This document shows, piece by piece, positions 13,106 to 58,203 of a DNA stretch of 61,622 nucleotides. The stretch is from Alistipes senegalensis. Lineage in GTDB: Bacteria > Pseudomonadota > Gammaproteobacteria > Burkholderiales > Burkholderiaceae_D. Position 1 is the first letter of the stretch. Each line of letters starts with the position of its first letter. The stretch spans positions 716,073 through 777,694 of the forward strand of contig JAMPER010000001.1 of the NCBI GenBank assembly GCA_023664945.1, read 5' to 3'. The notes below the pieces were generated by a model that had not been told where the DNA came from, ran no database searches, and worked only from the letters and a program-made list of their open reading frames with translations. A program made the position numbers and the translations under genes.

Positions 13106-13120
13106 TTTGGCCTCCGTTGA

Positions 13121-13231
13121 TTTGAGAGAGGCCGCCTTTGTGCGGGCGGTCGGGCGCACTCTCGGCATCAACGAAGCCGCGTCCGGATTTCCCCTTGCGG
13201 GTATTGTATGTCCGGTCTCTACCCCGACCAG
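13121..13231 (-). ncRNA. C4 antisense RNA-like element, cassette 1
   Basis: The core runs from CTGGTCGGGGTAGAGACCGG through GCCCGCACAAAGGCGGCCTC, the conserved signature of C4 antisense RNAs that control the ant gene in phages P1/P7. A CGGC/GCCG hairpin displays the loop TTCGTTGAT (13167-13175), which pairs with ATCAACGGAG in the ribosome-binding site of the BRO gene (13112-13121), 10 contiguous pairs including one G-U. It is more than 90% identical to cassette 2 except in this loop and its target. Confidence 0.82.
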
Positions 13232-13270
13232 TGATGGATATAACCTGCGCGCAGCATGGCACGCAGGCAT

Positions 13271-13357
13271 AAAAAAAGCCGCAGACTGACGGGGCGGTTT
13301 GACCGCTGTAGCTATAGAGAGGCTTTCAGCATATCCCGCCAGCAGGTGTTTTGTCAA
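13271..13357 (-). promoter_or_regulatory. promoter and attenuator of RNA cassette 1
   Basis: -35 TTGACA (13357-13352), an 18-bp spacer and -10 TATGCT (13333-13328). Downstream are a GCGGT-CAA-ACCGC hairpin (13294-13306) and an overlapping alternative CCGC...GCGG stem running into seven U's (13271-13277). The layout is shared by all four cassettes, although the terminator stem here is short. Confidence 0.6.
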
Positions 13358-13422
13358 ATGCTCATGGCTTAAGCATTATTTGGGATATAAATGGAAATTT
13401 TCAGTTATGAAGTCCGTTTTCC

Positions 13423-13830
13423 CTATTCCATATCCTGGTCAAACAGCTCCCAAAAACCCGGCTCTTCGGCATCAAGTAGAAACCGGTTGGTGTACCGGAT
13501 ATTCCGTTTCAGGTAATCTGTGCGAAATTCGTCGGCCATAATCAATGTTTCTTCGTCGGTATCGCCGCAATATATCCTGCGGATATTTTCCTCAGTCGTG
13601 TCGCCAAGCTCAAAACCGGCCTTTTTCAGCACTTCCTTGACAGCCCACCAGTACGGGCCGTAATCACGGTAGCGTTTTTTGTCCTGCTTTAACCGGAACA
13701 TAAAAACATCGTTCACCCAGAATCCAAGCGCGTCAGAAATACCCCTGTTTTCTTTCAGGTTTTTCTTTGCCTCAGCAACACGCCGCCTGATTGATTCTTT
13801 GTCAAACAGGTATTCGGTGTAATTCTTCAT
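13423..13830 (-). CDS. conserved hypothetical protein downstream of the methylase-helicase
   Basis: 135 residues, acidic, with a TAAGGAG ribosome-binding site. It contains WVNDVFMFRLKQDKKRYRDY and NRFLLDAEEPGFWELFDQDM. No family is recognised. It lies 12 bp after the giant DarB-like gene and is probably co-transcribed with it, so it may belong to the antirestriction block. No signal peptide or membrane segment is visible. Confidence 0.6.
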   Translation of the reverse strand: MKNYTEYLFDKESIRRRVAEAKKNLKENRGISDALGFWVNDVFMFRLKQDKKRYRDYGPYWWAVKEVLKKAGFELGDTTEENIRRIYCGDTDEETLIMADEFRTDYLKRNIRYTNRFLLDAEEPGFWELFDQDME

Positions 13831-13842
13831 TCGTCTAACTCC

Positions 13843-16800
13843 TTAAAAACGTTTCGTTGCATCTACAAGATAAAGTTCTCTTGCGGCGCTTTTATAGCTT
13901 TCAACCAGCTTGTCCCACGCTTTCCTACGCACATTCCAGACTTTGTTGTCGCTGTCCCACAAGCAGGGAGAGCCGACAAACGATGCCGCCGCTTTAATCG
14001 ACCGGAACCAGTCTCTTGTGCGCCCGGTAATGCCGACAGGCTTTTCAGGGTCAAGCTGAGTATCGGATGCTCCGGATTCTTTTGCGGCCTCTGCGGCGGC
14101 GCTTTTTAAGCCCCACGGCAAATCGTCATACCCAAAGTCAGAAGAAGCCCAGTCAAACCACGGTGTGCTGTTTTTCACGAAAGCAAGAGCCTGCTCCATG
14201 ATTTCACTATTAGTGCCGCCGGCAATAGCTGCTTTAAGGTCTGCAAGGACGATAGATCTTTCAATCAGTTTATACAGGTCAGGTCTGTATTCAAAATCGC
14301 CGGAAGTTAGCTTCATGTTATGCGCAGCAGCATAGTCGCGCAAACCGATCAACTCCTCATCTGTCATGCCGGATTGGCCTTTTACTACCTCAACATCCGA
14401 TTTAACAATGAATACACCTCTCCTTGTGTCATGCCCGCTGATGATTTTCTTCTGCTCATCGGAAATCTTGCGTTTAACCTCTGAATTTTCAATGCCTTCC
14501 GGTCTGAAAACATACGGGAAATAAGGCGCTGGCAAGCGGTAGGAGTAACTGTATGCAGCCATTATTTCCGTTTTACGTCGCTGAGCGACTTCCGGGATGA
14601 TTTCACTGAAAACATTTTCAACCCGCCCTTTTTCGGCCAGCATATCCTCAATTTCGGCGGCTTTGGTGATGCAGGCATCATAACCGTCCATCCCCGGGCA
14701 GATAAATTCAGCCGTTTTAATGTCTTCAGTATTGAAGCGTCGCGCAAGGAGCTCCCCGTTGTTAAGAATATACCCTTTTGCGTCAGGGCCGTTTCTGCCA
14801 AACAAGGAATCTGCGATGGCTAAAACGCCGTCCTTGAGGAAGAAGGTGCCTTTAACCAGCGGTTTGCCCTCAAACATCCTGCCTTCTTTGTTGACAATGG
14901 CTTCAGCAATATTGGCGGGGTAAGCCCCTTCGGCATCAGCGCTTTGCGTAAAGGAAGCCTGATTTTCTTCAATCATGCCTTTAGCTACGTCAACTTCATA
15001 CTGCCAGTCGTTGTATATCGGGCTTCCCTCAGACACGTTGAATGTGAACCTGCCGTAAGACTCTGTCACCATTTTTTCAACATCGCCGGCGTTAACCTTT
15101 TGTCTGGCGTTTCTGGCACTTTCGTTTTTCTGCCGGATGTAATCAAAGAAGCGTCCGAGATTAACCGGTTTTTCAACAGAACCCGTACCCGGCTCCCAAT
15201 AACTTTCAGTAACAACGATTGATTGCTCAATCTGCTTGCGCTTTTCATTGATTTCATCCTGAATAACTTCCAGCTGGTTCTTATAGTTCCGGATAGCTGA
15301 TTCATTCAGTTTCTGGTCAGGTTTCTCAACTCTTGCTTTTAGTTTCGCGGCCTCATTTTCTTTTGCAAAGAGCGTGGAAATCCGCGTGGAAAGAAGCGGC
15401 AAGGCTGTTTTATTCAGCTCGAGGAAACGTTTTTGCGCAACAATGGTTTCCAGGTTGGTGCGCTGATTGAAACGGTTGTTTTCAGCCCGTTTTTCAGCTT
15501 CAGCGGCGGCACCCTCTTCCTGCGCTTTCTTGATGGCATCATCATCGCCGATGCAGTTGGCCAGCATCTGGAGTTTTTCGTTATCAATACAGCTGTCAAC
15601 ATCCACTCTGCCAATGCCGTTTACATCCATCACTTTTTCAATCCATTCGGACTTTTTGTTTACCATCGTCCGCTTGGCTTCATCAAACGTTCCCTCAGCG
15701 TCGTAATAGTAAACATTGATCCGTGCTGTCATGTTCCCTTGGCGTACGCCACGTCCGTTTCTCTGCTCCAGGCTGTCTGGCGTCCAGCCGATGGTAAGGT
15801 GGTGGATAGCCTGAGTGCCTTTTTGCAGGTTGATACCGACTTCGGCCTTTTCGTTGGCAATAATAACCTGGTATTTATTGTCGCTGCCGCTGGCATTAAA
15901 GCCGTCCTGAACCGCCTGGATTTCTTCAGGGGAATCGTTGGTCTTGCCTGTAACAATGGCAACCTTGCCGGACGAAACGCCGGCCCTCTTGGCCAGCAGG
16001 CGTTTAATCTTGTTGTGCAGCGGCAGAATGTCGCAGAAAATAATTTGTTTGACGATAGGCAGTTTTTTGCCGTCTGAACCGATGCCGCGCGGGTTTGCCA
16101 TCTCATCCTTGAAGTTTTCAAGCATGGCGGCCAGCTTCGGCGGAACAGATACATCCAAATCCAGGCCGAGGCTGTCGGCAATTTTTTCAAATGCTGTCTG
16201 CACATCCGGATCCATCGAATCGACAGCGATACTCCCCTCGCTGATGATTCTTGCCTGTACCGCGATTTTCTTAATCTCTACTTCACGGCCTGTGCCGGCA
16301 TCTTTAATCAACTCGCTTCCGACAATGGCTGATTCTTCGGTCATAGGGCCGGGACGCGGCCTCTTTTCAATAAACCGCTTGGCATTAAACTGCCTAATAG
16401 CGGCTTCTGCCTTGTCTTTCTGCGGTTTAATGAAATTGTAGAAAGTTGCCCGCGAATCCAGCTCAGGATCCGCTATCAGGTACGTCATTTTGTTAATCAG
16501 ATTAAACGGATGGCCAATCAGCTTAATGTCCTCGCCAAAATGCTCTGCCACCCACTCATAATCTTCCTTATTGCCTCTGTTCGGCTTTTTCATTAACTCG
16601 TCAATGGCGTATCGGAAAGCGCCTTTGTAGCGTTTCAGCTGGTCAACGACAGCAGGCGGCAGGGTAACGCGCGTTGCCTTTTCTTCTTTTTCCGGCGCAA
16701 CAATCTGCGCGCCGACGCTTTGCGCCGTCCGCGCTGTGTACACATCGCCTATGGCTTTGCGTAACACATCGGTATTATCCAGTCCTGTAAACACGTCTGT

Positions 16801-19800
16801 AATGCGCGGAATACCATCTGTTGTTACGTCATCCTGGTTCTCTTTAACGCACATCATTTCCATGAAATGGTCTGAGCCGCGGATACCGAGGCAGGTATCG
16901 TTTACGCGCTCATGGCCGACTGCCAGAGAAAGCATGGAGTAAATTTCCAGCGGGCTGTTGGTAATCGGCGTTGCTGTCAGCACCAATACGCCGTCTTTCA
17001 GTTCAGACTTGCCGCGGATAAACCATGCCTTTGCCTGTGCATCAATGCCGCGTTTGGACGCAGGCGCAAGAGACAGATATTTTGCACCCTTGAAATCCAC
17101 GGTTTGCGAGGAGTTTTTATACATATGCCCCTCGTCAAACACCAGGCTGTCAATACCCATGTCTTCCAGATACGGCGCTCCGCCTTTTTTATCTGAAAGA
17201 ATAGCCAAAAGGCTGGCCTGCTTGCCTTTATTCCTTTCATCTTTTTTCTTATCCTCGCTTTCGGCAAAGCTGGCGTCTACGCTTCGCATAAACTGTTCGT
17301 AATCACCGACAGTGCTATCTCTCAGCTTGATGCGTTCGAAAGCCTCCATCGTCATGAAAATCTTGCTGTGGCGGTTTTCAAGCACCTTATTCAGGTCTTC
17401 ATCGAAGTTGGCAGAACGTACTGCTGCTTTGCCGTTTTTATCCACGCGCAGGCCGACAAACAGACAGTCTTCGGTATTGGAATAGATGGCGCTGGCTTCT
17501 TTTTTCCAGTTGGAAAGCACGGAATTAGGCACCACAAAAGCGGTTTTCTTCTTGATACCGATGCTTTGCGCATATTGGACAGCGGCAAGCCCCTGGAAAG
17601 TCTTTCCAAGCCCGACGCCGTCGCCGTTGCCCCCGCCGAATTCACGCCCCATTTTGCGGACAAAGGCATTTTGGTAACCGTGCAGCTTAATTTCAGAATT
17701 TAACCCCGGGATAGACATGGGCGATTCATCATCAACTGCCTTAAACCGGAGTTTTTCAGGATCAGAGGCCGCTGCTTTAATGCGATCCATGATTTTCCGG
17801 TTCGCCTTTACCCATCCGTTAAACTGTTCGTTGCGCTGGTTCACCATATCGCGCAATTTCATCAGCGCGTCTTCATCGCTCATATCCAGCTTGATGCCGC
17901 CGAGCGTGATAGTGCCGTTTTTCATATAATCGCCGAAACGGTTCAGCAGCTTTTCATCGTCAGACAAATTGCTCCCGCGGACGTTAATATCGGCGTATTT
18001 CTTATTCCGCCTTTCGTCAAAAGCCTCGTAAGCAGAGCTGTCAACAAATCTCTTCAAAAACTCTACTTTTTCGTCAACCGTAACCAGCGGGCTGAAAAGA
18101 TTAAATCTCAGCTTCGATACGTCGATCTTTTCAACTCTTGCCTCAGCGTCCATTTTCTGGCGGAGCAGCTTCCCTTTAACTTTTTCGTCCGCCGCATTGG
18201 CAATATCGGCGTCAACCTTGCGGATAAAGTCGGCATACTTACCGATGTAATAATCATCGGCTTTCGTTACGCTCTTGCCGTCGCTTGATACGCACCAGCC
18301 GCTGTCACCGAACGGGTCAAAACTGTCGCCAAAGATTTTTTTAGCTTCTTCCAAGCTTACCCATTTCGATTTTGTGGTGTAGCGCAGCCCCTCGAAAGTC
18401 CCGTCAGCTGATACTTCAATAGACGGCATTTCCTGCACGTCGCCGCGCCAGACAGCAGAAAACGCTTTTTTCTTGTAATGACGCCCGATAAAATCAAGCC
18501 CCTCTCTCAAACTGCCGCCGATAGAGGACAGCCGTTTTTTGGCTGTTACCGCATGGCGCTGCATGGCATCTGACAAAGCCTTATATTCTTCAACGAAATT
18601 GACGGCCGGCGTTTCGTTTGAGCGCTCATCAAACACATACATTGCAGCCATGCCAATAACACCGGCATTCCAGTATTTTTCACGGTCGCCCGCTTTCTTG
18701 ATTTTTTTAAGTTCAGCAACCGCACCCCGCACCCATCCGGGTATTTCAATCGTCTGAGCCATGTCAGTCATGTATTGCGCAAAACCGGCAAGGCTCTTGT
18801 AATCCACCTTGTTTTCAAAAGCGCTGTAAGGATTGGCAAGTCGGCCAAGCAGATCTGCCATATCCTCATCTTTTTTGGGTTTTCCCAGCGCAACCCAGCG
18901 TCCGTCCTGCATTTGCAGTGTCTGCCCTGCCTGGACAATCGTGTCGCCGTCCTTGTAGATAATCGGCATGGTTTCCGATGCGCCAAGCAATTCCCATTTC
19001 ACGCGGGAATCAGGGAATTTCCTGATCATCTGCGCGATTTCGGCTATCGGTTTTGTGGTGATAACCCGGTCAACATCGCGGAATTTGTCCGGGTCTTTCG
19101 GCACAAATTCACCTAAAACAAAGCGCTTGCCATCTGTATCAAAATAACGCCCATCAATAAAGTCATCCCACAAAACATTGGCTTCTCTCAGAGTTTCAGG
19201 AGATTGCCCGCGCAATTCCTCGATTTTTTCCTGCGTATCTTTGCTGTATTTGCGGAAAGCGATAACGTCGGTCATGGTGTCAGCATTTGCCGTTCCAAAT
19301 ACCGCGTTTGGCAAGCGGTAAGCTCCAAGAAACTCGGCCATATAGCAGCTCTTCCTGCGCAAATCTTCTTCTTTGCCACCCTTGCCGGAAACGCATCTTG
19401 GCGGCGTAATGAATATTGCCAGCCCGCCCTGTCTTAATTTTTCCAGAGAACGCAAAATAAAGTAGTTTTGCAGCGGTTCTTCCTGATAACGCTGGTCATC
19501 AAGATAGTTTTTGCCACGGTCTGCTTTTCCACCAAACGGGACGTTGGTGATCACTGCGTCATACTGCTCATCCGGCGTTGCCGCAGCCACTTTCTCAAAA
19601 TTGGAAATCACCGCGTTGTAACCTGTGCCTCCGTTAACCAGCTGATTGATACGTCCAGATGTTTCATTCAGTTCAACAGCGTCAATAGCCGCATTCAGCG
19701 GCGCTGTTGCTCCAAAAATACCCACACCTGCGCAAGGGTCAAGCACTTTTCCGCCTGTGAATCCAAGCTCACCCATCAGATTCCAAAGGCCCTCTGCGAT

Positions 19801-20286: not shown

Positions 20287-20301
20287 CTCATTACCCTTTC
20301 A

Positions 20302-23119: not shown

Positions 23120-23143
23120 TTCTTGTGTATTGTTTGGCTGGCA

Positions 23144-24524: not shown

Positions 24525-24612
24525 TTGACAACCGCATAAGCTATTGGCATACTGAATATCTCTCTAAATTTCCAAGGCGGTAATCGCCCCTGTTAGTCTG
24601 GCGATTTTTTTT
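24525..24612 (+). promoter_or_regulatory. promoter and attenuator of RNA cassette 3
   Basis: -35 TTGACA (24525-24530), a 17-bp spacer, -10 CATACT (24548-24553). Then a TTCCAAGG site (24570-24577) identical to the downstream ribosome-binding region, a GGCG-GTAAT-CGCC hairpin (24576-24588), and a mutually exclusive intrinsic terminator AATCGCC...GGCGATT plus a T8 run (24582-24612). Confidence 0.7.
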
Positions 24613-24629
24613 ACGCCCATAGCTTTTTA

Positions 24630-24736
24630 CTGGTCGGGGTAGAGACCGGACATACAATACCCGTAAGGGGAAATCCGGACGCGGCAACCTTGGAAGCCGA
24701 GAGTGCGCCTGACCGCCCGCACAAAGGCGGCCTCTC
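24630..24736 (+). ncRNA. C4 antisense RNA-like element, cassette 3
   Basis: It has the same C4 core as cassettes 1 and 2 (CTGGTCGGGGTAGAGACCGG ... GCCCGCACAAAGGCGGCCTC), in the opposite orientation. The CGGC/GCCG hairpin carries the loop AACCTTGGAA. CCTTGGAA (24688-24695) is perfectly complementary to TTCCAAGG both in the attenuator (24570-24577) and at the ribosome-binding site of the BRO gene (24740-24747). Confidence 0.83.
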
Positions 24737-24754
24737 AATTTCCAAGGAATCTCT

Positions 24755-25549
24755 ATGTCTAATCTCGCCTTTCGCAATCTCATCTTTGACGCCCGTATCA
24801 TCAATCACACCGTTTATATCACGTCTGTACAACTCGCCGCTGCGCTGGGGTACTCGCGCCCGGAAGCTGTAACGAAGATTTTTAACCGAAATTCAGATGA
24901 ATTTTCTCCCGAAATGTCGCTTGCCCAATTTGGGCAAGCGGGGGTAGCGGGTGACAATATCCGCCTTTTCTCACTTCGTGGCGCTCATCTTATCGCCATG
25001 TTCTCCCGGACTCCTGTCGCAAAGGAATTCCGGCGCTGGGTACTTGATGTGCTGGACAAGGAAGTAAGCCAGACCTCCACAAACCTCCCTACCCTATGCG
25101 AAGACGACGCCATGTTCCTGATTAACATGGCAAGTGGTTGCCTAAAGAGGCTTGTGCCCGTAACAATCAATCCTGACGACTACGTCCTGAAAGCACCCGT
25201 TCCTCCTGATATACAGGCCGCACTGGATAATAAGGCACTAATGCTGGCTGCCGAAGCACACAAAATCATCCACCGGTATCTGCAAATGTCTATCGATTAT
25301 TCGTGTGCCATTGGACATCCGGAACGCTACATTGACAAGCCCGGTGCTATGGAAAAAATCGCCCAAACCACTTTGGAAATGGCGCTCACGCCACACAATG
25401 CCGATTTGTGCCTGGTAGAACGCTGGTCTGACTTCATTGCAGAAGCAGCGAAAAATTACGCTGATGCTGTCAAAGCCGGAATAGGCGACCTGAGGAAACG
25501 CGGTATCGTGATCGGCTTTATTCCTCAAAAAAGGCGCGCATCAAACTGA
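24755..25549 (+). CDS. BRO-family antirepressor
   Basis: 264 residues, the only plus-strand gene between 13 and 38 kb. The BRO-N domain (about 1-110) contains IINHTVYITSVQLAAALGYS, IRLFSLRGAHLIAMFSRTPV and AKEFRRWVLDVLDKE. The C-terminal half is helical (RYLQMSIDYSCAIGHPERYI). Translation starts at the ATG after CAAGGAATCTCT, where the CAAGG is the RNA-cassette target. The gene with its RNA cassette is inserted between the antirestriction block and the spike gene, convergent with the late genes. Confidence 0.78.
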   Translation: MSNLAFRNLIFDARIINHTVYITSVQLAAALGYSRPEAVTKIFNRNSDEFSPEMSLAQFGQAGVAGDNIRLFSLRGAHLIAMFSRTPVAKEFRRWVLDVLDKEVSQTSTNLPTLCEDDAMFLINMASGCLKRLVPVTINPDDYVLKAPVPPDIQAALDNKALMLAAEAHKIIHRYLQMSIDYSCAIGHPERYIDKPGAMEKIAQTTLEMALTPHNADLCLVERWSDFIAEAAKNYADAVKAGIGDLRKRGIVIGFIPQKRRASN

Positions 25550-43185: not shown

Positions 43186-43983
43186 TTACGCTTGTGCTTC
43201 GGCCTTGATTTCATGAGCCAGCAACGCCAGCTTTGCCAGGCCTTTAGGTGTGACGATGACCTGTTCGCTAATCCGCTCGTCTCCATTGTCCAGGGTAACG
43301 GCATAGACTTTGTGTTTCAGGTAGCCTGCCCGGATTTTGTCCTGAAAGGCTACATAGCTTTTGCCGCCTGCCCGCCGGTATATCCACCGGTTGGCAACGA
43401 GCCACGCAAAGAAGATTTTGGGCTGGATATCCAGGCTTTTTGCTGCATTGGTCAGGTTCATGCCGCCGTCTGCATTGGCAATGCGGTCAAAGCCGTCCGC
43501 TTTTGGCTGCTGCTCGGCAACCTTGTTTTCCAATGACTGCACTCTTTCGGCATAATTGCCCAGCAGGCCGCGCAAGGAAGCGGGGTCGTTGAGTATCGCC
43601 ATCGGGTCAGCCGGTTTGGCTACCTGCTTTTCCAGTTCATCCATCCGGTCAATGACAGATTTTCTCAATCTGGCGTCATATCCGGTGACCAGCGTCATGG
43701 TATGCGAGCGGTCAAGCCGGATTTCTGATACATACCCGCGGTTGTCCCGGATGATTGTAACTCCTTGATTTTGTTCATTCCCCAGTTTTGGGGAATCATT
43801 TTTTAATACAAATCGGGCGGACACAGCATCAAAAATATCCTGCTCTTTTATGTCCTCGCCATAGAGATTGGTCAGCATGTTTTTAATATCTCTTAAAACA
43901 TGGTCATGACGCTTTCCTGTCAGCTCGGCAATTTCCCTGCTGGACATGGTCAAGGGGGCGTTTTCAATCATCATTATTTCCAT
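43186..43983 (-). CDS. Rha-family antirepressor with KilA-C domain
   Basis: 265 residues. The N-terminal Rha domain TMSSREIAELTGKRHDHVLR then DIKNMLTNLY (about 12-110) is followed by a linker coiled coil. The KilAC domain (about 165-260) has GGMNLTNAAKSLDIQPKIFF, AWLVANRWIYRRAGGKSYVA and VTPKGLAKLALL. This domain ends P1 Ant. The small gene at 43995-44294 and a C4-like RNA precede it, the same order as c4-icd-ant of P1. It likely antagonises the phage repressor. Confidence 0.8.
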   Translation of the reverse strand: MEIMMIENAPLTMSSREIAELTGKRHDHVLRDIKNMLTNLYGEDIKEQDIFDAVSARFVLKNDSPKLGNEQNQGVTIIRDNRGYVSEIRLDRSHTMTLVTGYDARLRKSVIDRMDELEKQVAKPADPMAILNDPASLRGLLGNYAERVQSLENKVAEQQPKADGFDRIANADGGMNLTNAAKSLDIQPKIFFAWLVANRWIYRRAGGKSYVAFQDKIRAGYLKHKVYAVTLDNGDERISEQVIVTPKGLAKLALLAHEIKAEAQA

Positions 43984-43994: not shown

Positions 43995-44294
43995 TCAGGC
44001 TTTGGCGGCATTGAGTGCGGCATATCGACGCCGCATGGCTTTGTTGACGTAGTTACAGCCGACCTCTTCGGCAGCGTAATTGATATCGTTTTGCAGCATT
44101 TCAGCTTTCCCCCAGATGGCAGAAAGCGCATTGGCAATGTTTTCCGGATAACGAGAAGCGGCTGGCGTTTCCATATACGCCAGTGCGAGCTTGGCTATGG
44201 AAACAATTTCAGGAAGTGCATCAGACGCAAAGCAATCTATCGTCTCGATTGTCCCTTGCAGTGTTTCGATGGATACAGCAGTAGATTTAGGCAT
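43995..44294 (-). CDS. small protein in the icd position before the antirepressor
   Basis: 99 residues: STAVSIETLQGTIETIDCFA, LPEIVSIAKLALAYMETPAA, then CNYVNKAMRRRYAALNAAKA. Its ribosome-binding site CAGGAGG is the target of the C4-like RNA immediately upstream. In P1 the small icd gene sits between c4 and ant and is translationally coupled to ant. Here the gap to the antirepressor is 11 bp. No sequence similarity to Icd is claimed. Confidence 0.65.
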   Translation of the reverse strand: MPKSTAVSIETLQGTIETIDCFASDALPEIVSIAKLALAYMETPAASRYPENIANALSAIWGKAEMLQNDINYAAEEVGCNYVNKAMRRRYAALNAAKA

Positions 44295-44310
44295 GATAGC
44301 CTCCTGTAGA

Positions 44311-44421
44311 TTTGAGAGAGGCCGCCTTTGTGCGGGCGGTCGGGCGCACTCTCGGCGCTACAGTAGCCGCGTCCGGATTTCCCCTTGCGGGTGTTGTATG
44401 TCCGGTCTCTACCCCGACCAG
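44311..44421 (-). ncRNA. C4 antisense RNA-like element, cassette 2
   Basis: It is nearly identical to cassette 1 over about 225 bp including upstream DNA. The differences concentrate in the CGGC/GCCG hairpin loop (here TACTGTAGC, 44358-44366) and in the target CTACAGGAGG at 44300-44309. CTGTAG in the loop pairs with CTACAG in the target, and CTGTAGC pairs with GCTACAG in the upstream attenuator. Confidence 0.82.
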
Positions 44422-44460: not shown

Positions 44461-44547
44461 AAAAAAAGCCGCAGACTGACGGGGCGGTTTGACCGCTGTA
44501 GCTATAGAGAGGCTTTCAGTATGCCTTGCTGCGGGGAATGATGTCAA
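44461..44547 (-). promoter_or_regulatory. promoter and attenuator of RNA cassette 2
   Basis: -35 TTGACA (44547-44542), an 18-bp spacer, -10 CATACT (44523-44518). Downstream lie GCTACAG, a GCGGT-CAA-ACCGC hairpin and a weak terminator-like stem followed by seven U's (44461-44467). The 34-bp promoter segment is identical to that of cassette 4. Confidence 0.62.
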
Positions 44548-44589: not shown

Positions 44590-44889
44590 ATGATGAATAC
44601 CATCCTTCAGCTTCCTGAATTTGAGCAATGGCTTAATGGCCTGAAAGACGCTTTTACCCGCAGAAGGCTTGTTGCAAGGCTGCGCAAGGCAGAACTTGGC
44701 AACCTGGGCGATGTGAAGCATGTCGGTTCTGGTGTATGGGAGATGCGCGAATTCTTTGGATCTGGCTGGAGGATGTATTACGTTCAGCGTGGGGAGATAT
44801 TGATTGTCATGCTTGGCGGTGGAGATAAATCCACGCAGAGCAAAGATATTGAACGCGCTATTGAGCTTGCTGCGATGTTGGAGGATTAG
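44590..44889 (+). CDS. RelE/HigB-like toxin (COG3657 type)
   Basis: 99 residues, with a second ATG one codon on. FEQWLNGLKDAFTRRRLVAR, GDVKHVGSGVWEMREFFGSG and WRMYYVQRGEILIVMLGGGD are the core of the putative addiction-module killer family, a RelE-like mRNA interferase. KSTQSKDIERAIELA forms the C-terminal helix. The antitoxin follows after 3 bp. Toxin-first order is the HigBA norm. No ribosome-binding site is visible. Confidence 0.85.
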   Translation: MMNTILQLPEFEQWLNGLKDAFTRRRLVARLRKAELGNLGDVKHVGSGVWEMREFFGSGWRMYYVQRGEILIVMLGGGDKSTQSKDIERAIELAAMLED

Positions 44890-44892
44890 GCA

Positions 44893-45189
44893 ATGAACAG
44901 GAAAATCAAAATCGCTGATCTGAAACGCTTTGACGTAACGGAACATCTGGATAGTGATGAGGCCATTGCCGATTACATGAATATCGTCCTGGAGGAAAAT
45001 GACCCAGCTTTGCTTGCCGCTGCGCTTGGCGATATTGCAAAAGCAAGAGGTATGGCCGAGCTTGCCAGAAAGACAGGATTGAGCAGAGAAAGCCTTTATA
45101 AATCGCTTTCCGGTGAGCGCATTCCTTCTGCCGATACTTTGCTTAAGGTAATCAGGGCGCTTGGCCTGAAGCTGATGGTTGCTGCATAA
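44893..45189 (+). CDS. HigA-like antitoxin (COG3636 type)
   Basis: 98 residues: KIADLKRFDVTEHLDSDEAI followed by a helix-turn-helix GMAELARKTGLSRESLYKSL SGER and LLKVIRALGLKLMVAA. It is the standard partner of the preceding toxin and represses through the palindrome at 44568-44583. It is only distantly similar to the antitoxin at 56987-57271, so the modules are probably not interchangeable. Confidence 0.85.
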   Translation: MNRKIKIADLKRFDVTEHLDSDEAIADYMNIVLEENDPALLAAALGDIAKARGMAELARKTGLSRESLYKSLSGERIPSADTLLKVIRALGLKLMVAA

Positions 45190-48815: not shown

Positions 48816-49580
48816 ATGCTTACAGGAAAAAAGTTAGGCGAAGCAATCGCCAGCGCCATACAAAAAAAGATTGACAGTGGCGCAATCAAGTCAAAAGCAG
48901 AAGTTGCCAGGCACTTTCATATCAAACCTCCATCAATACATACATGGATAAAGAATGGAACCGTAAGCAAAGATAAACTGCCAGAGTTATGGAACTATTT
49001 TTCTGATGTTGTTGGGCCAGAACATTGGGGGATACCTAATCAATTGATGCCCGAACAAACAAAAACAGAAGAGCAAATTCAGGATTCAATCCGGCTCAGG
49101 GCTCTATTCGCTGAACGCGCCGGGATGAGTCAACTTGACTTCGGCCAAACATATGGAATTGGCAATCAAGGGATGGTTTGGCAATACTTAAATGCCGATA
49201 AACCTAAGGGTTCGGCACTTAATATTTCTGCTGCAATAAAATTTGCGGAGGGACTGGACTGCCGTATTTCAGATTTCAGTCCGTCAATTCAGAAAGAAAT
49301 TGACAGAATTGCCCAGTTTGCCAGTAAAACTGAAAAAGACACCGGCGGAAAAAATGATTCAATGGAAGAAAACGCATCTTCAAAATGGCCGTTCAAAGCA
49401 AATTATGATCAATATTTACAGCTAGACCCGCTAATCAAAGAGGCTATGGATAAATTTCTTTCCATAGCGATAAAAGGCTACCCAATAAGCAATGATGATT
49501 ATACAAATTTAACAGAATCAGTAAACGATGCCATCAGAATCATGAGAGAAAACAAAATAAAAAAAGCCGAAAATTATTAA
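48816..49580 (+). CDS. CI-like prophage repressor without protease domain
   Basis: 254 residues with two DNA-binding-like regions: AEVARHFHIKPPSIHTWIKN (about 27-48) and MSQLDFGQTYGIGNQGMVWQ (about 107-130). The C-terminal 80 residues are helical. No S24/LexA-type Ser-Lys peptidase is visible, so RecA-driven self-cleavage is unlikely. Induction more likely depends on the antirepressors encoded elsewhere in the prophage. The ATG has no ribosome-binding site and may be translated from a leaderless PRM transcript. Confidence 0.75.
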   Translation: MLTGKKLGEAIASAIQKKIDSGAIKSKAEVARHFHIKPPSIHTWIKNGTVSKDKLPELWNYFSDVVGPEHWGIPNQLMPEQTKTEEQIQDSIRLRALFAERAGMSQLDFGQTYGIGNQGMVWQYLNADKPKGSALNISAAIKFAEGLDCRISDFSPSIQKEIDRIAQFASKTEKDTGGKNDSMEENASSKWPFKANYDQYLQLDPLIKEAMDKFLSIAIKGYPISNDDYTNLTESVNDAIRIMRENKIKKAENY

Positions 49581-52837: not shown

Positions 52838-52863
52838 ACCTCCATCAACACGATGGAGACCAC

Positions 52864-53328: not shown

Positions 53329-53480
53329 TGAGCCTATTTAGCATCCGTCACGTTTCACCGCGAGGAGAGCGGAGAGAACTGTACGTACTGGCGCATAGCT
53401 CTGGGAGTGCATTGGACTATGCGCATGACCGGTACGGCATCGGCTCAATCATCGTCAAGTTGGCACGGAGGCAGGCATGA
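53328..53480 (+). CDS. 50-residue early protein
   Basis: Starts at ATG overlapping the previous stop and ends at TGA overlapping the next ATG: MSLFSIRHVSPRGERRELYV then LAHSSGSALDYAHDRYGIGS. Both overlaps (TAATG and ATGA) support translation although the gene is very short. Function unknown; short proteins are frequent in lambda-type recombination operons. Confidence 0.6.
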   Translation: MSLFSIRHVSPRGERRELYVLAHSSGSALDYAHDRYGIGSIIVKLARRQA

Positions 53481-53662
53481 AAAACCTCCTCAAAGGCGCA
53501 GTAGAAAATTTTATCTACATCATCGTCGGTGCAATCATCTGGGCAGCCGGGTATGCCACCGGCTACGACAACGGCGTAGATGCCGTCATCAACCGCTTTG
53601 CTGGCGTGGAAATCGTGGCACAGACAGAAATCCCCCTGCCCGTTCAGGAGGCGCGGAAATGA
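53477..53662 (+). CDS. small membrane protein of the recombination operon
   Basis: 61 residues with one membrane span: NFIYIIVGAIIWAAGYATGY. ATGA overlaps join it to both neighbours. Function unknown; it could be an early inner-membrane effector like lambda Kil or Sie proteins. Confidence 0.6.
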   Translation: MKNLLKGAVENFIYIIVGAIIWAAGYATGYDNGVDAVINRFAGVEIVAQTEIPLPVQEARK

Positions 53663-54561
53663 CCCATTCCGACTTCCTTGCCGCCCGTCAGACCGGCATC
53701 GGCGGCTCTGACATCGGCGCCATTTTGGGTGTCAGCCCCTTCAAAACCGCAATGGACGTGTATCTGGCCAAAGTAGAACCGAATCCTGAAGATGAGCAGA
53801 CAGAACTCACCTACTGGGGCCATGCGCTCGAGCCCGCCATCATAGAGCGCTTTGCCAGAGACCACGGCATTGTCGTTGACCGACCAGAAAAGATTGCCCG
53901 ACATCCGCAACACGGCTGGATGGTAGCCAATCTGGACGGGATCATTTTGGACAGCAAGCCCGGCGTGCTGGAAATCAAGAACGTCAACCAGTTTGCGGCA
54001 AAGCACTGGGGCGAAGCAGGCAGCGACAATGTGCCGCTGGCCTATGTTGCGCAATGCGCCTGGTACATGGCGGTCATGGATTTTGATTATGCGGTGGTAG
54101 CCGCCCTCTTTGGCGGGCATGACTATCGGGAGTTCAGGATTGAACGGGACGAGGATCTGGAGAAGCTCCTGATATCACGCGGCCATGATTTCTGGCACAC
54201 GTTTGTTCTCCCCAAAACACCCCCTGCACCGGTAACGGAAAGGGACACGCTTCGCCTGTTGGGCAAGTCGCAGGATGAGGGAACGGCTGTTGCGGATGAG
54301 GATACTTTTTCGCTGTACAGGGAGCTTGCCAATGCCAAAGCGGATGCGGCGGTCCTGGGGGAAAGAATCAAGTCTCTTGAGGCAAAACTCAAGATTGTCA
54401 CTGGCACAGCATCCGCCCTGGCCTACCACGACAAGACGCTTGCGACATGGAAGGTACAGAAATGCCGCCGGCTGGATCAGCAGGCATTGAAGGCAGCCTG
54501 TCCGGATATTTACGAACGGTTTTTGAAAACGTCCGAAACCCGTGTGTTTCGGTTGAAATGA
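53659..54561 (+). CDS. YqaJ-type recombination exonuclease
   Basis: 300 residues: RQTGIGGSDIGAILGVSPFK (the start motif of YqaJ/lambda Exo nucleases), YWGHALEPAIIERFARDHGI, MVANLDGIILDSKPGVLEIK and NVPLAYVAQCAWYMAVMDFD. The catalytic D...ExK is in ANLDGI and LEIKN, and the Q...Y motif is in AQCAWYM. It resects DNA 5'-3' to load RecT from the next gene. A C-terminal coiled coil ends the protein. Confidence 0.9.
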   Translation: MTHSDFLAARQTGIGGSDIGAILGVSPFKTAMDVYLAKVEPNPEDEQTELTYWGHALEPAIIERFARDHGIVVDRPEKIARHPQHGWMVANLDGIILDSKPGVLEIKNVNQFAAKHWGEAGSDNVPLAYVAQCAWYMAVMDFDYAVVAALFGGHDYREFRIERDEDLEKLLISRGHDFWHTFVLPKTPPAPVTERDTLRLLGKSQDEGTAVADEDTFSLYRELANAKADAAVLGERIKSLEAKLKIVTGTASALAYHDKTLATWKVQKCRRLDQQALKAACPDIYERFLKTSETRVFRLK

Positions 54562-54572
54562 AAGGATAGATG

Positions 54573-55622
54573 ATGAGTGTTCAGGCATTGAAACAGGTTG
54601 CAGGCAATGAGAAGGCGCTTGCCGAGATGAAACCGAAGGAGAAGGTGGCGTATTTTCTGAATGCCAGAAAGGCGGAGATTGCCAAGATGTTGCCGCAAAA
54701 GATGAATGCAGAGCGGCTTTTGAAGGTGGCGCAGATCGCCGCAACAACAACCCCTGCCCTGGCGGAATGCGATGTGGCCAGTCTGGTCGGGGCGATTGGC
54801 CAATGTGCCCAGATGGGGCTGGAACCCAATACGGTACTGGGCCATGCCTATCTGGTGCCATTTAACACGAAACGCAAGGATAAGAACGGCAGGGAACGCT
54901 GGGTAAAAAGTGTCCAGGTGATTATCGGGTACAAGGGACTGATCGACCTGGCAAGGCGCTCAGGCCAGATTGTCAGTATTGCCGCGCATGAAGTCCGGGA
55001 AAAGGATCAGTTTGAGCTGGTGTACGGGTTGGATGAGAAGCTGAACCATACCCCGGCAATGGACAATCGCGGGGAAATTATCGGGTTTTATGCGGTGGCC
55101 AAGCTGAAGGACGGCGGCTATTGCTTTGAGTTCATGAGCCTTGCAGATGTACAAGCCATCATGCTTTCTACGCAAAGCGAGGGGAAATACGGCCCCTGGA
55201 AGGATAACTTTGTGGAGATGGGCAGAAAGACGGTTATCCGCCGTCTGGCCAAGTACCTGCCGCTTTCTGTTGAGTTTCAGACGGCTTCCGCGCTGGATGG
55301 GATGGCAGAAGCCGGGAAAGACCAGCATCTTGATGCGGTGATTGACGGGGAGTTTGTGGTTATGCCGGATGATGCGCCGGTTGTCCAAGATGAATCTGCC
55401 GAACCGGCGCAAGCCTCCCCTGCCCCTGCTCCTGTACCCGAACAGATAGATACCGTCTCCCCGCAATTCACCTTTGCAGAGGTCAACGACCGCCTCATCA
55501 AGGCAAAGACACCTGATGAGCTGGACGAGGCAGCGGACATGATTGCGCTGGTGCCGAACCCGGCACATCAGGAGGAGCTGAGGAAGGTGTATGCGGGATT
55601 GAAAAAAGGAGATGAGGCATGA
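54573..55622 (+). CDS. recT: RecT single-strand annealing protein
   Basis: 349 residues (an ATG one codon earlier is possible) with an AAAGGA site. FLNARKAEIAKMLPQKMNAE, LAECDVASLVGAIGQCAQMG then LEPNTVLGHAYLVPF, IGYKGLIDLARRSGQIVSIA and WEDNFVEMGRKTVIRRLAK-like segments are classic RecT. The C-terminal Pro/Ala linker and a small helical domain are an extension. It forms a recombinase pair with the upstream exonuclease for lambda Red-like annealing. Confidence 0.93.
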   Translation: MSVQALKQVAGNEKALAEMKPKEKVAYFLNARKAEIAKMLPQKMNAERLLKVAQIAATTTPALAECDVASLVGAIGQCAQMGLEPNTVLGHAYLVPFNTKRKDKNGRERWVKSVQVIIGYKGLIDLARRSGQIVSIAAHEVREKDQFELVYGLDEKLNHTPAMDNRGEIIGFYAVAKLKDGGYCFEFMSLADVQAIMLSTQSEGKYGPWKDNFVEMGRKTVIRRLAKYLPLSVEFQTASALDGMAEAGKDQHLDAVIDGEFVVMPDDAPVVQDESAEPAQASPAPAPVPEQIDTVSPQFTFAEVNDRLIKAKTPDELDEAADMIALVPNPAHQEELRKVYAGLKKGDEA

Positions 55623-55858
55623 AGGTCACGATAACCATTTCCGACACCCCTACCGGTGTGCAAGTCACGCGGGAATTTCAGCGGGAACCGGATGATGAGG
55701 AAGTGCCGATGGCTTATGTGGTCGGCAGGCTGCTATGCGTACCTGAGAAGCCGAAGAGAAGCATCTGGGTGGATAAATTCTTCCCGGCCATCATGACCGG
55801 GTGGGGTGTATTCGCCATCATCTGGCTTGCGATGTCTATCTGGAAAGCGATTTTTTAG
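55619..55858 (+). CDS. small C-terminally anchored membrane protein
   Basis: 79 residues; the ATG overlaps the RecT stop. A soluble N-terminal part (MKVTITISDTPTGVQVTREF) and a C-terminal span FFPAIMTGWGVFAIIWLAMS. No family recognised. It is the last gene of the recombination group before the repeat region. Confidence 0.6.
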   Translation: MKVTITISDTPTGVQVTREFQREPDDEEVPMAYVVGRLLCVPEKPKRSIWVDKFFPAIMTGWGVFAIIWLAMSIWKAIF

Positions 55859-55860
55859 CC

Positions 55861-56117
55861 AGTCACCCGGCAGCTGTAGATGCCGGGCCAGTTACCCGGT
55901 CTGGACAAAACCGGGACCAATCCGTGAGGGGCTGCATTTTTTATCAACCCGGTTAATAGATGCGTCAAACGGCCCCTCACGGATTGGGAACAAATCATTT
56001 TGGTGACGCCAACAAAATGATCACCTTCGTGAAGCCGCGAAAATGATATCGGAACCCATTTTCGTGACGTCACGAAAAAGGTATCGGAACCCATTTTGCT
56101 GGCGTCAGCAAAAAGGT
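55861..56117. repeat. cluster of inverted repeats and tandem hairpins
   Basis: A perfect 16-bp inverted repeat (CCAATCCGTGAGGGGC at 55917-55932; complement at 55972-55987) is followed by hairpins at 55997-56018, 56026-56041, 56059-56078 (perfect palindrome TTTTCGTGACGTCACGAAAA) and 56094-56113 (TTTTGCTGGCGTCAGCAAAA). The last two repeat with a 35-bp period including TATCGGAACCCATTTT. Non-coding; it lies just upstream of an antirepressor gene. Confidence 0.75.
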
Positions 56118-56149
56118 TAAAGGCCAAACTGACAAAAAAGGAAAAAGAA

Positions 56150-56944
56150 ATGGGCGATTTGAAAATATTTGAAAAAGAAGATTTTGGCTCTATCCGTGTC
56201 GTTGAACAGAACGGCGAACCGTGGTTTGTTGCAAAAGATATAGCGCGGGCACTTGGCTATTCCAGTACAAACATGACAACTATTTTTCAGGCTGTTCCGG
56301 ATGAATGGAAGGGTAGCAAAGAGATTGCTACCCCTGGTGGAACACAGGAAATGCTTATTGTCTCTGAACCAGGGCTGTATTTCTTTCTTGGACGTTCAGA
56401 CAAACCTAAAGCGCTTCCCTATCAAAAGTGGATTGCCAGTGATGTTGTACCTTCTATCCGCAAGACAGGCCAATACGGCGGCTATGCTTTGCCGCGTGTG
56501 CCCAAGTCATTCCCGGATGCCCTTCGCATGATTGCGGATATCGAAGAAGAGAAAGCGCTCGCCATTGAACAGCGGGATTACTACCGCCGCACAAAAGCAG
56601 AAATAGGAAATAAACGCGAAGCAACCGCAATGGCCACCGCTTCTGCTGCCGTCCGTAAAGTAAATGCCCTTGAAGAGGAGCTTGGCCGCGGCAAAAAATT
56701 CAAGGTCGTTAAAGCCATCCCGTGGCTTCTGGAAATCTTTGAACCCTCCCGCGGCATGTACTCCGTTGTTGGCAAGTACCTGAAACGCTTGTCTGAAGAA
56801 CAGGGGTATGAAGTTGGCAAAATCGTCACATCCGAATACCCGGATGGTATCAACATGTACCATGTGGATGCCATCAAGCTGTTCCGCATTGAGCTGGGTA
56901 ACCCCAATACCCTTCGCCGCTATCGTAGAAAAATGGCGGCTTAA
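56150..56944 (+). CDS. BRO-family antirepressor
   Basis: 264 residues from MGDLKIFEKEDFGSIRVVEQ; an in-frame ATG at 56096 is inside the repeats and unlikely. The BRO-N domain (about 1-110) has EPWFVAKDIARALGYSSTNM, LIVSEPGLYFFLGRSDKPKA and WIASDVVPSIRKTGQYGGYA. The helical linker and C-terminal domain (YEVGKIVTSEYPDGINMYHV) match prophage antirepressors. Instead of a C4-like RNA it is preceded by the tandem hairpin cluster. Confidence 0.78.
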   Translation: MGDLKIFEKEDFGSIRVVEQNGEPWFVAKDIARALGYSSTNMTTIFQAVPDEWKGSKEIATPGGTQEMLIVSEPGLYFFLGRSDKPKALPYQKWIASDVVPSIRKTGQYGGYALPRVPKSFPDALRMIADIEEEKALAIEQRDYYRRTKAEIGNKREATAMATASAAVRKVNALEEELGRGKKFKVVKAIPWLLEIFEPSRGMYSVVGKYLKRLSEEQGYEVGKIVTSEYPDGINMYHVDAIKLFRIELGNPNTLRRYRRKMAA

Positions 56945-56986
56945 ATGGCTATTTGCAAAAAAATTAACCCGGGAACGCCAACAACC

Positions 56987-57271
56987 TCACAGATGAACCG
57001 GCGTCATGGCATAGCCAAGAGACCGCATGATTCTCATGATGGTTTCAAAAGAAGGGTTGCCGTTTTCTCCCAGCGATTTGTAAATTCCCTGTGGGGTGAT
57101 GCCACTTTCCTTTGCAACAGAATACACACCCCTTGCCTTGGCAATCTCACGCAATGCCAGGCGAATGCCGCTACCATCGCCCGGATCTTCTGCAAAACTG
57201 GCTTCCAGAAAAAGCCGGAAATCTTCCTCTGTTTTCAGATGGTCTTGCACATCAAACTCAGTGGTATCCAT
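56987..57271 (-). CDS. HigA-like antitoxin (COG3636 type)
   Basis: 94 residues: TEFDVQDHLKTEEDFRLFLE, SGIRLALREIAKARGVYSVA, KESGITPQGIYKSLGENGNP and IMRIMRSLGYAMTPVHL, a helix-turn-helix antitoxin. It lies 3 bp after its toxin. Truncated relatives exist at 4343-4531 and 45223-45255, showing that this module has been copied and lost within the prophage. Confidence 0.87.
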   Translation of the reverse strand: MDTTEFDVQDHLKTEEDFRLFLEASFAEDPGDGSGIRLALREIAKARGVYSVAKESGITPQGIYKSLGENGNPSFETIMRIMRSLGYAMTPVHL

Positions 57272-57274
57272 CTT

Positions 57275-57565
57275 TCATTCCTCCGATTCAAAAAACTGTT
57301 TGGCAAAAGCAATATCACGTTGCTGAGAATCTTTGTTCCCACCGCCAATAACGATAATCAGTTCCTCATCGCGAAAACCGTAGTACACACGAATGCCGGA
57401 CGGGACATGAAAGCGCAACTCAAAAACGCCACCTCCTACGCTTTTGCTGTCCCCGAAATAACCATTTTCTTTTATCTGGGCAAACCGGAAAACGATTCGC
57501 TTCTGGATAGCGTTGTCCTGCTTGCTCAACCATTTGTCAAAAATTTTTGTTGTTTTTACTTTCAT
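57275..57565 (-). CDS. RelE/HigB-like toxin (COG3657 type)
   Basis: 96 residues: TTKIFDKWLSKQDNAIQKRI, GDSKSVGGGVFELRFHVPSG, IRVYYGFRDEELIIVIGGGN and KDSQQRDIAFAKQFFESEE. A complete RelE-like addiction killer. Promoted from 57575-57603 on the minus strand, opposite to the antirepressor genes on both sides. Confidence 0.88.
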   Translation of the reverse strand: MKVKTTKIFDKWLSKQDNAIQKRIVFRFAQIKENGYFGDSKSVGGGVFELRFHVPSGIRVYYGFRDEELIIVIGGGNKDSQQRDIAFAKQFFESEE

Positions 57566-57574
57566 GATGTCTTA

Positions 57575-57617
57575 ATTATAAACTATGGTTTATTAAAAGT
57601 CAACTATAGTTTATATA
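57575..57617 (-). promoter_or_regulatory. HigBA-like operon promoter and operators
   Basis: -35 TTGACT (57603-57598), a 17-bp spacer and a consensus -10 TATAAT (57580-57575). Two copies of ATAAACTATRGTT in opposite orientation (57576-57590 and about 57603-57617) flank the -35 and touch the -10, likely antitoxin sites. Confidence 0.8.
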
Positions 57618-57628
57618 TTGACAATCTC

Positions 57629-57741
57629 TTGACATCATTCCCCGCAGCAAGGCATACTGAAACCGCGCTGGAAAAAGACAGCGCCGGGTTTGGCGACCTG
57701 ATTTGCTTAAGGCGGACAACCGCCTGCTGCGCGGTTTTTTT
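57629..57741 (+). promoter_or_regulatory. promoter and attenuator of RNA cassette 4
   Basis: -35 TTGACA (57629-57634), an 18-bp spacer, -10 CATACT (57653-57658). Then GCTTAAGG (57705-57712), a GGCGG-ACAA-CCGCC hairpin (57711-57724) and an overlapping intrinsic terminator AACCGC...GCGGTT with a T7 run (57718-57741). Confidence 0.7.
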
Positions 57742-57750
57742 ATGTCCGTT

Positions 57751-57850
57751 TCATGTCTCCTATGGTGGGTCATGCAGGGCAGCCGCAAGGCTGGCCGGTT
57801 TCCTTAAGCGCCGGTTCGCCAACCCTGCATGGTTCCGCCACCCTATTTGG
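57751..57850 (+). ncRNA. structured antisense-type leader RNA, cassette 4 (not C4 fold)
   Basis: A long stem (GTGGG...CATGCAGGG pairing with CCCTGCATG...CCACC), a CAGCC-GCAA-GGCTG hairpin and a CCGG/CCGG hairpin whose 12-base loop holds TCCTTAAGCG. That loop is perfectly complementary to CGCTTAAGGA at the ribosome-binding site of the next gene (57875-57884). ATGTCTCCT at 57753-57761 is complementary to the overlapping AGGAGACAT (57881-57889). The same DNA is often translated as a spurious Ash-family reading frame. Confidence 0.7.
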
Positions 57851-57891
57851 CGATGGGGTGCGGGTTCAAAAAACCGCTTAAGGAGACATAC

Positions 57892-58203
57892 ATGTCTGAA
57901 ACTCTCACTGTATCCGCAGAACCCTCATTTCAACCCTTCTCGTGGTTGCCGGAAGGCGACACAAAAAGCACTGATGTACTCATTGCCTGGTGCTCTGATG
58001 TTGCCTATGGCATCGAGACGATATTGCAAATTGTCGAAGACAACAGGCTGCGCAATAACAACGACGAGCCAGGCTATTTTGACGATTACTACATCGGCCG
58101 CCTCATGCGCTTCGCTACTGTCAGCGCTAGGCTTTTGGGCGAAGCCGCCGATGCTGAAATAGACCGTATCAACCGGGAACATCAAACCGCGAAAAAACAC
58201 TGA
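57892..58203 (+). CDS. small protein before the antirepressor (icd-like position)
   Basis: 103 residues: SETLTVSAEPSFQPFSWLPE then DVLIAWCSDVAYGIETILQI and RFATVSARLLGEAADAEIDR. Acidic and helical. It has AAGGAG before the ATG, the exact target of the RNA leader. It precedes the antirepressor by 12 bp, matching the small-gene plus antirepressor arrangement at 43.2-44.3 kb, although the two small proteins are not clearly alike. Confidence 0.68.
   Translation: MSETLTVSAEPSFQPFSWLPEGDTKSTDVLIAWCSDVAYGIETILQIVEDNRLRNNNDEPGYFDDYYIGRLMRFATVSARLLGEAADAEIDRINREHQTAKKH

Follow-up and report, generated by a model that had tools for sequence, protein, structure and literature searches.

The closest described relative of the elements considered here is the immI region of phages P1 and P7, in which the C4 antisense RNA (RF01695; c4-a1b1, RF03163) lies before ant on the same strand and sets two words, a′ and b′, against two copies of their target, a1-b1 and a2-b2. 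Termination in the P1 immI leader is Rho-dependent. Two other described RNAs bear on the comparison, namely IsrK (RF01394) of Gifsy-1, a terminated leader associated with a small open reading frame (ORF) and the antirepressor gene anrP (PMC4825925), and sRNA-Xcc1 (RF02221), which is reported as integron-borne or virulence-linked (PMC12444791). The present analysis concerns a 61,622-nucleotide (nt) stretch of contig JAMPER010000001.1 (positions 716,073 to 777,694), hereafter the window, which is part of a 1.93 Mb genome of the genus Oxalobacter. Its prophage carries four cassettes, A to D, in each of which promoter, attenuator leader, structured RNA, start site and antirepressor-type gene follow in this order, with a small ORF first in C and D. 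Each very probably represents a C4-type antisense lock on its antirepressor gene, a function that we infer from what the sequence shows: the architecture, the match between loops and target words, covariation in the fold, competing hairpins, the kinds of gene present and tandem arrays of such units.

Four cassettes of common layout

The four cassettes were announced by an original prediction made from the letters of the window; all are present, with coordinates checked base by base. The promoter type then given, TTGACA-N17/18-(T/C)AT(A/G)CT, was recovered in every case, as TTGACA-N18-TATGCT in A, TTGACA-N17-CATACT in B and TTGACA-N18-CATACT in C and D. The genes, as predicted, are four of antirepressor type in one prophage, with Bro-N, Bro-N, Rha-KilAC and AntA-KilAC domains. 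The features, in window coordinates, are as follows.

13357 to 12374, minus strand: cassette A, whole
13352..13357 and 13328-13333, minus strand: A promoter, read from the sequence (-35 TTGACA, -10 TATGCT)
13306-13311, minus strand: A b1 word CTACAG, of C type
13271..13306, minus strand: A attenuator, antiterminator GCGG-5-CCGC competing with terminator CCGC-11-GCGG-C-T7
13140..13229, minus strand: A putative antisense RNA, sRNA-Xcc1-like, GAGAG class (RF02221, 43.4 bits; covariation)
13167-13173 and 13159-13163, minus strand: A RNA words, b′ loop CGTTGAT and a′ GAGAG
13115..13121, minus strand: A b2 target ATCAACG, beside the Shine-Dalgarno sequence
12374..13105, minus strand: A antirepressor-type gene, Bro-N (PF02498, 2e-15; PHROG anti-repressor Ant)
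24525 to 25549, plus strand: cassette B, whole
24525..24530 and 24548-24553, plus strand: B promoter (-35 TTGACA, -10 CATACT)
24570-24577 and 24576-24612, plus strand: B b1 target TTCCAAGG and attenuator with competing hairpins
24632..24722, plus strand: B putative antisense RNA (RF02221, 39.8 bits)
24688-24695 and 24699-24703, plus strand: B RNA words, b′ CCTTGGAA and a′ GAGAG
24740..24747, plus strand: B b2 target TTCCAAGG at the Shine-Dalgarno sequence
24755..25549, plus strand: B antirepressor-type gene, Bro-N (PF02498, 8.5e-9)
44547 to 43186, minus strand: cassette C, whole
44542..44547 and 44518-44523, minus strand: C promoter (-35 TTGACA, -10 CATACT)
44496-44502 and 44461-44496, minus strand: C b1 target GCTACAG and attenuator
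44330..44419, minus strand: C putative antisense RNA (RF02221, 42.4 bits)
44357-44363 and 44349-44353, minus strand: C RNA words, b′ CTGTAGC and a′ GAGAG
44304..44309, minus strand: C b2 target CTACAG
43995..44294, minus strand: C first small ORF, 99 amino acids (aa), without family match
43186..43983, minus strand: C antirepressor-type gene, Rha and KilAC (PF09669, 1.6e-11; PF03374, 9.8e-27)
57629 to 59031, plus strand: cassette D, whole
57629..57634 and 57653-57658, plus strand: D promoter (-35 TTGACA, -10 CATACT)
57665..57741, plus strand: D isrK-like leader (RF01394, 53.6 bits)
57689-57695, 57705-57712 and 57711-57741, plus strand: D leader parts, a1 TTTGGCG, b1 GCTTAAGG and attenuator
57758..57845, plus strand: D C4 antisense RNA (RF01695, 77.6 bits)
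57801-57810 and 57818-57824, plus strand: D RNA words, b′ TCCTTAAGCG and a′ GCCAACC
57846-57852 and 57875-57884, plus strand: D targets, a2 TTTGGCG and b2 CGCTTAAGGA
57892..58203, plus strand: D first small ORF, 103 aa
58216..59031, plus strand: D antirepressor-type gene, AntA and KilAC (PF08346, 2.8e-25; PF03374, 2.4e-29)

The small ORF of C stands in what we take to be the position of orfX/icd in P1. The alternative hairpins claimed for every attenuator take the same form throughout: in the leaders of A to D a GCGG-loop-CCGC hairpin is followed by an overlapping terminator, CCGC-loop-GCGG plus T-run, and the two are mutually exclusive. The b1 word lies directly before, or inside, the first arm of the antiterminator hairpin, and at loci L001, L003, L005 and L020 the pairing between RNA and leader can extend into the same arm if mismatches and G-U pairs are allowed. 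When a strict terminator rule was applied to a wider set, 43/86 leaders were positive, where shuffled sequences gave 0.4 on average; a competing upstream hairpin on the 5′ arm of the terminator was present in 29 of the 43, against 4.4 expected. In A and C the arm and the T-run are one base apart, and for that reason both escaped the rule.

The mechanism proposed for this arrangement begins with a single promoter that would yield a short terminated leader. Transcripts reading through would hold an RNA of 80-90 nt, presumably released by processing in the manner of P1 C4 by RNase P, and the released RNA would pair with the same words twice, at a1-b1 in the leader and at a2-b2 on the Shine-Dalgarno sequence of the first gene. 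Because b1 touches the GCGG arm of the antiterminator or extends into it, an RNA paired at b1 should leave the terminator free to form and so end transcription, and pairing at b2 should block translation. In the lysogen the RNA would silence its own antirepressor, and it could act in trans on an incoming phage with the same word.

Pairing words in the window, related loci and tandem arrays

The expectation that the loops would match their start sites was borne out. In exact antisense, b′ covers 7, 8, 6 and 10 nt of its own Shine-Dalgarno region in A, B, C and D, and non-cognate pairs within the window reach at most 4 nt, except for D on B with 6 nt, which equals C's own. Start-site duplexes separate in the same way, with -23.7 to -31.1 kcal/mol for own pairs and -12.9 to -22.6 kcal/mol for non-cognate pairs in the window. 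Own leader words match over 8, 7 and 8 nt in B, C and D, respectively, and in D the a′ word GCCAACC stands opposite TTTGGCG at both leader and start, which is the two-site complementarity of C4. The a′ word GAGAG is common to A, B and C. Over the stretch compared, A and C have an identical leader and nearly all of the RNA in common, the differences being b′ and b2, plus one other base; this joint change is direct evidence of a paired alteration of loop and start site. A's loop matches its own leader over 4 nt, and C's RNA matches A's leader over 7 nt, the b1 word there being C's.

These results bear on the idea that each cassette is gated by its own RNA and that the four form orthogonal locks. 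The start-site words are indeed own to each cassette and, being hypervariable, would make four start-site locks separately keyed. Neither part of the idea, however, is borne out in full, and complete orthogonality had to be given up: A's leader carries C's word, A to C have GAGAG in common, and 7-nt non-cognate leader matches connect the window with array units elsewhere in the genome (B on T3, T1 on D). The start sites of A to D thus appear separately keyed, yet C's RNA should also attenuate A.

An input of LexA at the promoters was considered and discarded, the one-mismatch LexA-like sites in the leaders of A and C (13306-13321 and 44496-44511) overlapping a1-b1. Such sites number 25 in the whole window against 14.3 expected (0/100 shuffles reach 25), and given this excess there may be an SOS link elsewhere in the window.

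Copying has evidently happened amongst the cassettes: over 217 nt A and C agree at 96 %, and 36 nt of the promoter region are identical in C and D. A's leader, moreover, is mismatched to A's RNA. One could therefore regard the four copies as recombination debris of an ancestral immI module, their variation as drift and D alone as functional. This is improbable: between A and C the words b′ and b2 differ jointly in a compared stretch that is otherwise nearly identical, covariation holds the fold, and none of the four reading frames is interrupted, their domain combinations being of three kinds (Bro-N twice, Rha-KilAC and AntA-KilAC).

Beyond the window, RF02221 matches were obtained in 8/13 genomes of the genus, 14/294 of the family, 31/399 of the order and 26/369 of the class, these sets overlapping and each containing the window's genome. 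Part of the listed matches became loci, 91 in all, reduced to 85 by removal of five near-duplicates and one short leader. In 32 of the 85 loci the same word of at least 7 nt is complementary to both own leader and own start, against 29 of 7,140 swapped pairs, and for two-site words of at least 6 nt the figures are 44/85 and 167/7,140. A viral scan gave at least 120 stretches, and the word test, run on 80 of them, used 79 sites with full flanks, 65 of them non-redundant. Here the shared 7-mer occurs at both sites in 37/65 (69/4,160 swaps) and the two-site word of 6 nt in 48/65 (301/4,160 swaps). For the C4 loci of the genus, D included, a two-site word is present in 10/14 against 12/182 swaps, in a tested stretch that includes a′, common to several loci. 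The exact-word test replaced a first, noisy loop test built on weighted duplex scores that included the GC-rich stem, in which the own target came top for 3/85 RNAs per site and the own means exceeded all 5,000 permutations.

The same RNA type in the same position was found in a contig of another genome of the genus and in a named Oxalobacter formigenes contig. Amongst named records, four were fetched from 22 listed (Acinetobacter phage 4316, Moraxella phage Mcat15, a Providencia stuartii plasmid and a Pseudomonas aeruginosa plasmid), and each of the four carries a word of 6-7 nt at either site, with Bro-N, Rha, KilA-N and BRO genes downstream. Behind the RF02221 loci, first ORFs (66/83 scanned) include Bro-N in six cases, SymE in four and AntA, KilA-N, Rha and P22_AR_N in two each, and second ORFs (56/63 scanned) include AntA in four, ANT in three, Bro-N in two and KilA-N and Rha in one each. 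The presence of SymE fits the sRNA-Xcc1-symE integron cassette reported in Xanthomonas (PMC12444791). Many targets are predicted for sRNA-Xcc1 and its homologues in Xanthomonas and Xylella (PMC2996969, PMC12189769), from which one might suppose host mRNAs to be the main targets; that role has been proposed for sRNA-Xcc1 of plant pathogens, where it would be linked to virulence or borne by vesicles. Such a role is very improbable here: in two sets the hypervariable loop fits its own cassette far above swapped controls, and the downstream genes with an identity are mostly phage antirepressor types or SymE.

At least three RF02221 matches within 61.6 kb occur, among the matches listed, in the window's genome and in one other (three in 26 kb, two of these RNAs having the same loop); this count of dense genomes is a lower bound, the filters being strict and few candidates being scored per genome in the larger searches. 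As a separate observation, positions 1-1500 of L107, another Oxalobacter contig, hold two C4 cassettes in series, each with its own start site and with different words.

Outside the window, the same genome has three more units in tandem, approximately 280 nt apart. Units 1 and 2 each consist of promoter, leader, RNA, Shine-Dalgarno sequence and about 20 codons before the next promoter, with the frame running into the next unit, and unit 3 leads into small ORFs, one of which shows 34 % identity with the small ORF of D over 77 aa. No antirepressor domain appeared behind the array in four ORFs scanned against Pfam at E 0.001. All three units nonetheless possess words matching own leader and own start, sharing 8, 7 and 6 nt. 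Within L009, positions 3685-4315, upstream of the three-unit array, contain a HigB-like toxin gene (PF05015, 1.5e-17) and a helix-turn-helix gene in divergent orientation, and the translated repeat GERGNYN at 6422-6664, a few kb from the array, suggests a repeat array resembling clustered regularly interspaced short palindromic repeats.

Comparable arrays occur in viral DNA. Units at most 350 nt apart were present in at least 8 of the 120 viral stretches listed; two pairs share identical RNAs, leaving six distinct arrays. The unit table drew on 127 of 135 model hits. Their loops vary from unit to unit, and in 6/6 the last unit opens an antirepressor-type gene (AntA, Rha, Rha, KilA-N, Bro-N and Bro-N/P22_AR), its own start-site word reaching at least 6 nt in five and 5 nt in the sixth. 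In the first unit of contig L182 neither leader nor start site matches the RNA. Over 83 nt this RNA is the same as one in L176, a different viral contig, where it belongs to a complete Rha cassette; the Rha cassette of L182 itself has a different word. Foreign two-site matches were found for 10/12 gene-less RNAs as against 89/154 complete or genomic ones, a small sample. In the literature, five sRNA-Xcc1 homologues lie within about 1.6 kb in Xylella fastidiosa Temecula1, and sRNA-Xcc1, isrK and C4 within 400 nt in Xylella De Donno, in a paper that discusses sRNA-Xcc1 homologues as RNAs of vesicles for which targets in bacteria and plants are predicted (PMC12189769).

Where tandem units have no gene of their own, the best reading is that they serve as extra locks. 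A wider proposal, put forward tentatively, is that C4 and sRNA-Xcc1 RNAs might serve phage-versus-phage immunity: lock RNAs would be duplicated or captured, the gene dropped and the RNAs stacked against the antirepressors of rivals, with own cassettes re-keyed to escape. The four-cassette prophage and the three-unit array would then be two stages of this process.

RNA classes, competing explanations and prophage setting

The structured RNA predicted for each cassette is supported in all four, but not by one RNA family, and the notion of four parallel cassettes holds for the layout whilst the RNAs fall into two classes. D's RNA belongs to C4 (77.6 bits against a gathering cut-off of 45) and its leader to isrK (53.6 bits against 50). 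A, B and C score only as sRNA-Xcc1 (39.8-43.4 bits) and, lying below the cut-off of that family, are termed sRNA-Xcc1-like, not members; the remaining GAGAG-class members of the genus score below it too. No C4 match was listed for A, B or C up to E 1, and their leaders were unmatched to isrK up to E 1. The further family c4-2 (RF02944), named in Rfam 15 (PMC11701678), matched 0/13 genomes of the genus, with controls equally silent, so that its absence is not proven.

A, B and C form, with seven relatives, one class with a′ GAGAG. Across these ten sequences 99.5 % of 187 cells are paired, a value biased towards the Rfam layout because the structures of this 10-row alignment, as of a 14-row one, were hand-set from it; double changes affect 8/19 pairs, and the covariation score is 0.394 against 0.113 for shuffled and at most 0.063 for slid controls, both of which were made for the 10-row alignment. 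A single model from all 75 RNAs was abandoned, as it was misaligned and gave 3 pairs only. The class has the three-helix fold with variable P3 loop of sRNA-Xcc1, matching the RF02221 model over its full length (1-87), and the order of its elements equals that of C4: closing stem, P2 tetraloop hairpin, P3 hairpin with b′ loop, then junction a′. The sRNA-Xcc1 family shows C4-type architecture, from which we infer its function. For single sequences, folding energies are unexceptional in A, B and C (z -0.4 to -1.2) and exceptional in D (z -3.5).

The isrK match of D's leader raises the alternative of positive control, whereby a terminated leader would bind antisense RNA or downstream structure in trans and turn the antirepressor on, as an activator circuit and not a lock. 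In Gifsy-1, IsrK supplied in trans raises anrP translation approximately 140-fold and transcription approximately 8-fold (PMC4825925). For the window such an account is unlikely, as the leaders of A to C have no isrK match and b1 has the same word as b2 and is the complement of b′, as would be expected if a single antisense RNA had two targets; a leader alone would merely compete. Lock and IsrK-type control can nevertheless coexist, with the leader as a sponge.

Several observations weigh against the antisense lock. As the terminated IsrK leader of Gifsy-1 activates the antirepressor mRNA in trans (PMC4825925), the leader's sign could be positive. The scores of A (43.4), B (39.8) and C (42.4 bits) do not reach the RF02221 gathering score of 53, and when A and C are folded singly, the minimum-energy structure differs from the consensus fold. 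Leader duplexes discriminate poorly between own and foreign: A's RNA gives -19.8 kcal/mol on its own leader and -20.9 kcal/mol on D's, C's RNA gives -25.4 kcal/mol on A's, and several pairs between window and array leaders are as strong as own pairs. The shared 7-mer at both sites is missing from 53/85 genomic loci and 28/65 viral sites, and some loci, such as L012, L018 and L027 of a subgroup in the genus, match their own leader but not their own start site. Most of the 66 scanned first ORFs have no Pfam family. The CI-like repressor of this prophage is a hypothetical target of the four proteins; its gene lies as follows.

48816..49580, plus strand: CI-like repressor (PHROGs repressor match)

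This repressor had been described as lacking a visible self-cleavage domain, and in agreement no Peptidase_S24 (Pfam) match was listed up to E 5, in a range where HMMER filters drop most matches above approximately 0.1. The antirepressors, as proposed at the outset, may be the induction inputs. By gene content the prophage is P1-like, with portal, tail sheath, baseplate, PmgG-like and DarB-, Ulx- and Hdf-like antirestriction genes, names that we take to originate from P1, and likewise RecE-like and RecT-like genes. Its nearest phage by tail sheath is Xanthomonas phage Rb1 (63.7 % identity), in which no RNA of the cassette type was detected at E 0.01.

Other elements of the window may be recorded alongside. 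A fifth antirepressor-type gene (56096-56944; Bro-N, 1.2e-20) has no detected RNA cassette; in front of it, a 35-nt tandem repeat (56026-56095) whose cores are palindromic resembles a protein operator. Divergent toxin/antitoxin-like gene pairs (PHROG toxin phrog_3445 and repressor phrog_4268) lie upstream of C (44590-45189) and D (56987-57565), and a stretch of 175 nt at 4357-4531 matches part of the latter pair with 87 % identity. A tRNA (60385-60468) followed by a host-type squalene/phytoene synthase gene (60661-61476) suggests the right prophage end.

Comparison with known systems

For sRNA-Xcc1-type RNAs the analysis suggests a testable function, as a keyed antisense lock on prophage antirepressors and SymE. 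Several differently keyed locks in one prophage imply that induction and superinfection immunity may be multi-input, and as the key is about 7 nt long and written three times in a complete cassette, it should become predictable from sequence alone which prophages silence which. The gene-less tandem units make stored immunity by antisense RNA testable.

In the literature searched, which lacked most subscription journals, sRNA-Xcc1 and an antirepressor were not found together, so that earlier recognition is possible; sRNA-Xcc1 and C4 antisense were found together in the Xylella paper only (PMC12189769). A to C have RF02221 as their best Rfam match and share with sRNA-Xcc1 the three helices, tetraloop hairpin and variable P3 loop. 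Unlike A to C, sRNA-Xcc1 is described in the portion of PMC12444791 available beside symE in Xanthomonas, without an antirepressor context.

With C4/immI of P1 and P7 the cassettes share the placing of the RNA before the antirepressor gene on the same strand, the pairing of a′/b′ with two sites, the variation of the specificity words and, in C and D, the small ORF before the gene. D is a member by Rfam score and has the P1 immI order of C4 RNA, small ORF and AntA/KilAC antirepressor; C has the same order, but with an Xcc1-like RNA and Rha-KilAC. The differences are that four cassettes are present instead of one, that A to C match another RNA family, and that the leaders here carry an intrinsic terminator and competing hairpin, unlike the Rho-dependent termination of P1. 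In P1 a small ORF, orfX/icd, comes before ant, as one comes first in C and D (in part PMC8201110).

D resembles IsrK-anrP of Gifsy-1 (PMC4825925) in its isrK-matching terminated leader, small ORF and antirepressor; there the short leader activates, a sign that D's leader may or may not share. The 'Group 1' sRNAs of Acinetobacter baumannii AB5075 comprise 21 C4-type RNAs with variable a′ loop in one genome, which the authors suggest could target incoming phages; unlike those analysed here, they are not described, in the portion available, as forming full antirepressor cassettes in a single prophage or tandem stacks in which the start sites match (PMC5320573). Finally, the crosstalk of Gifsy and Fels antirepressors is similar in that antirepressors act on repressors that are not cleaved, but control there is by LexA (PMC3121763), whilst the antirepressors of the Oxalobacter prophage would be gated by RNA.

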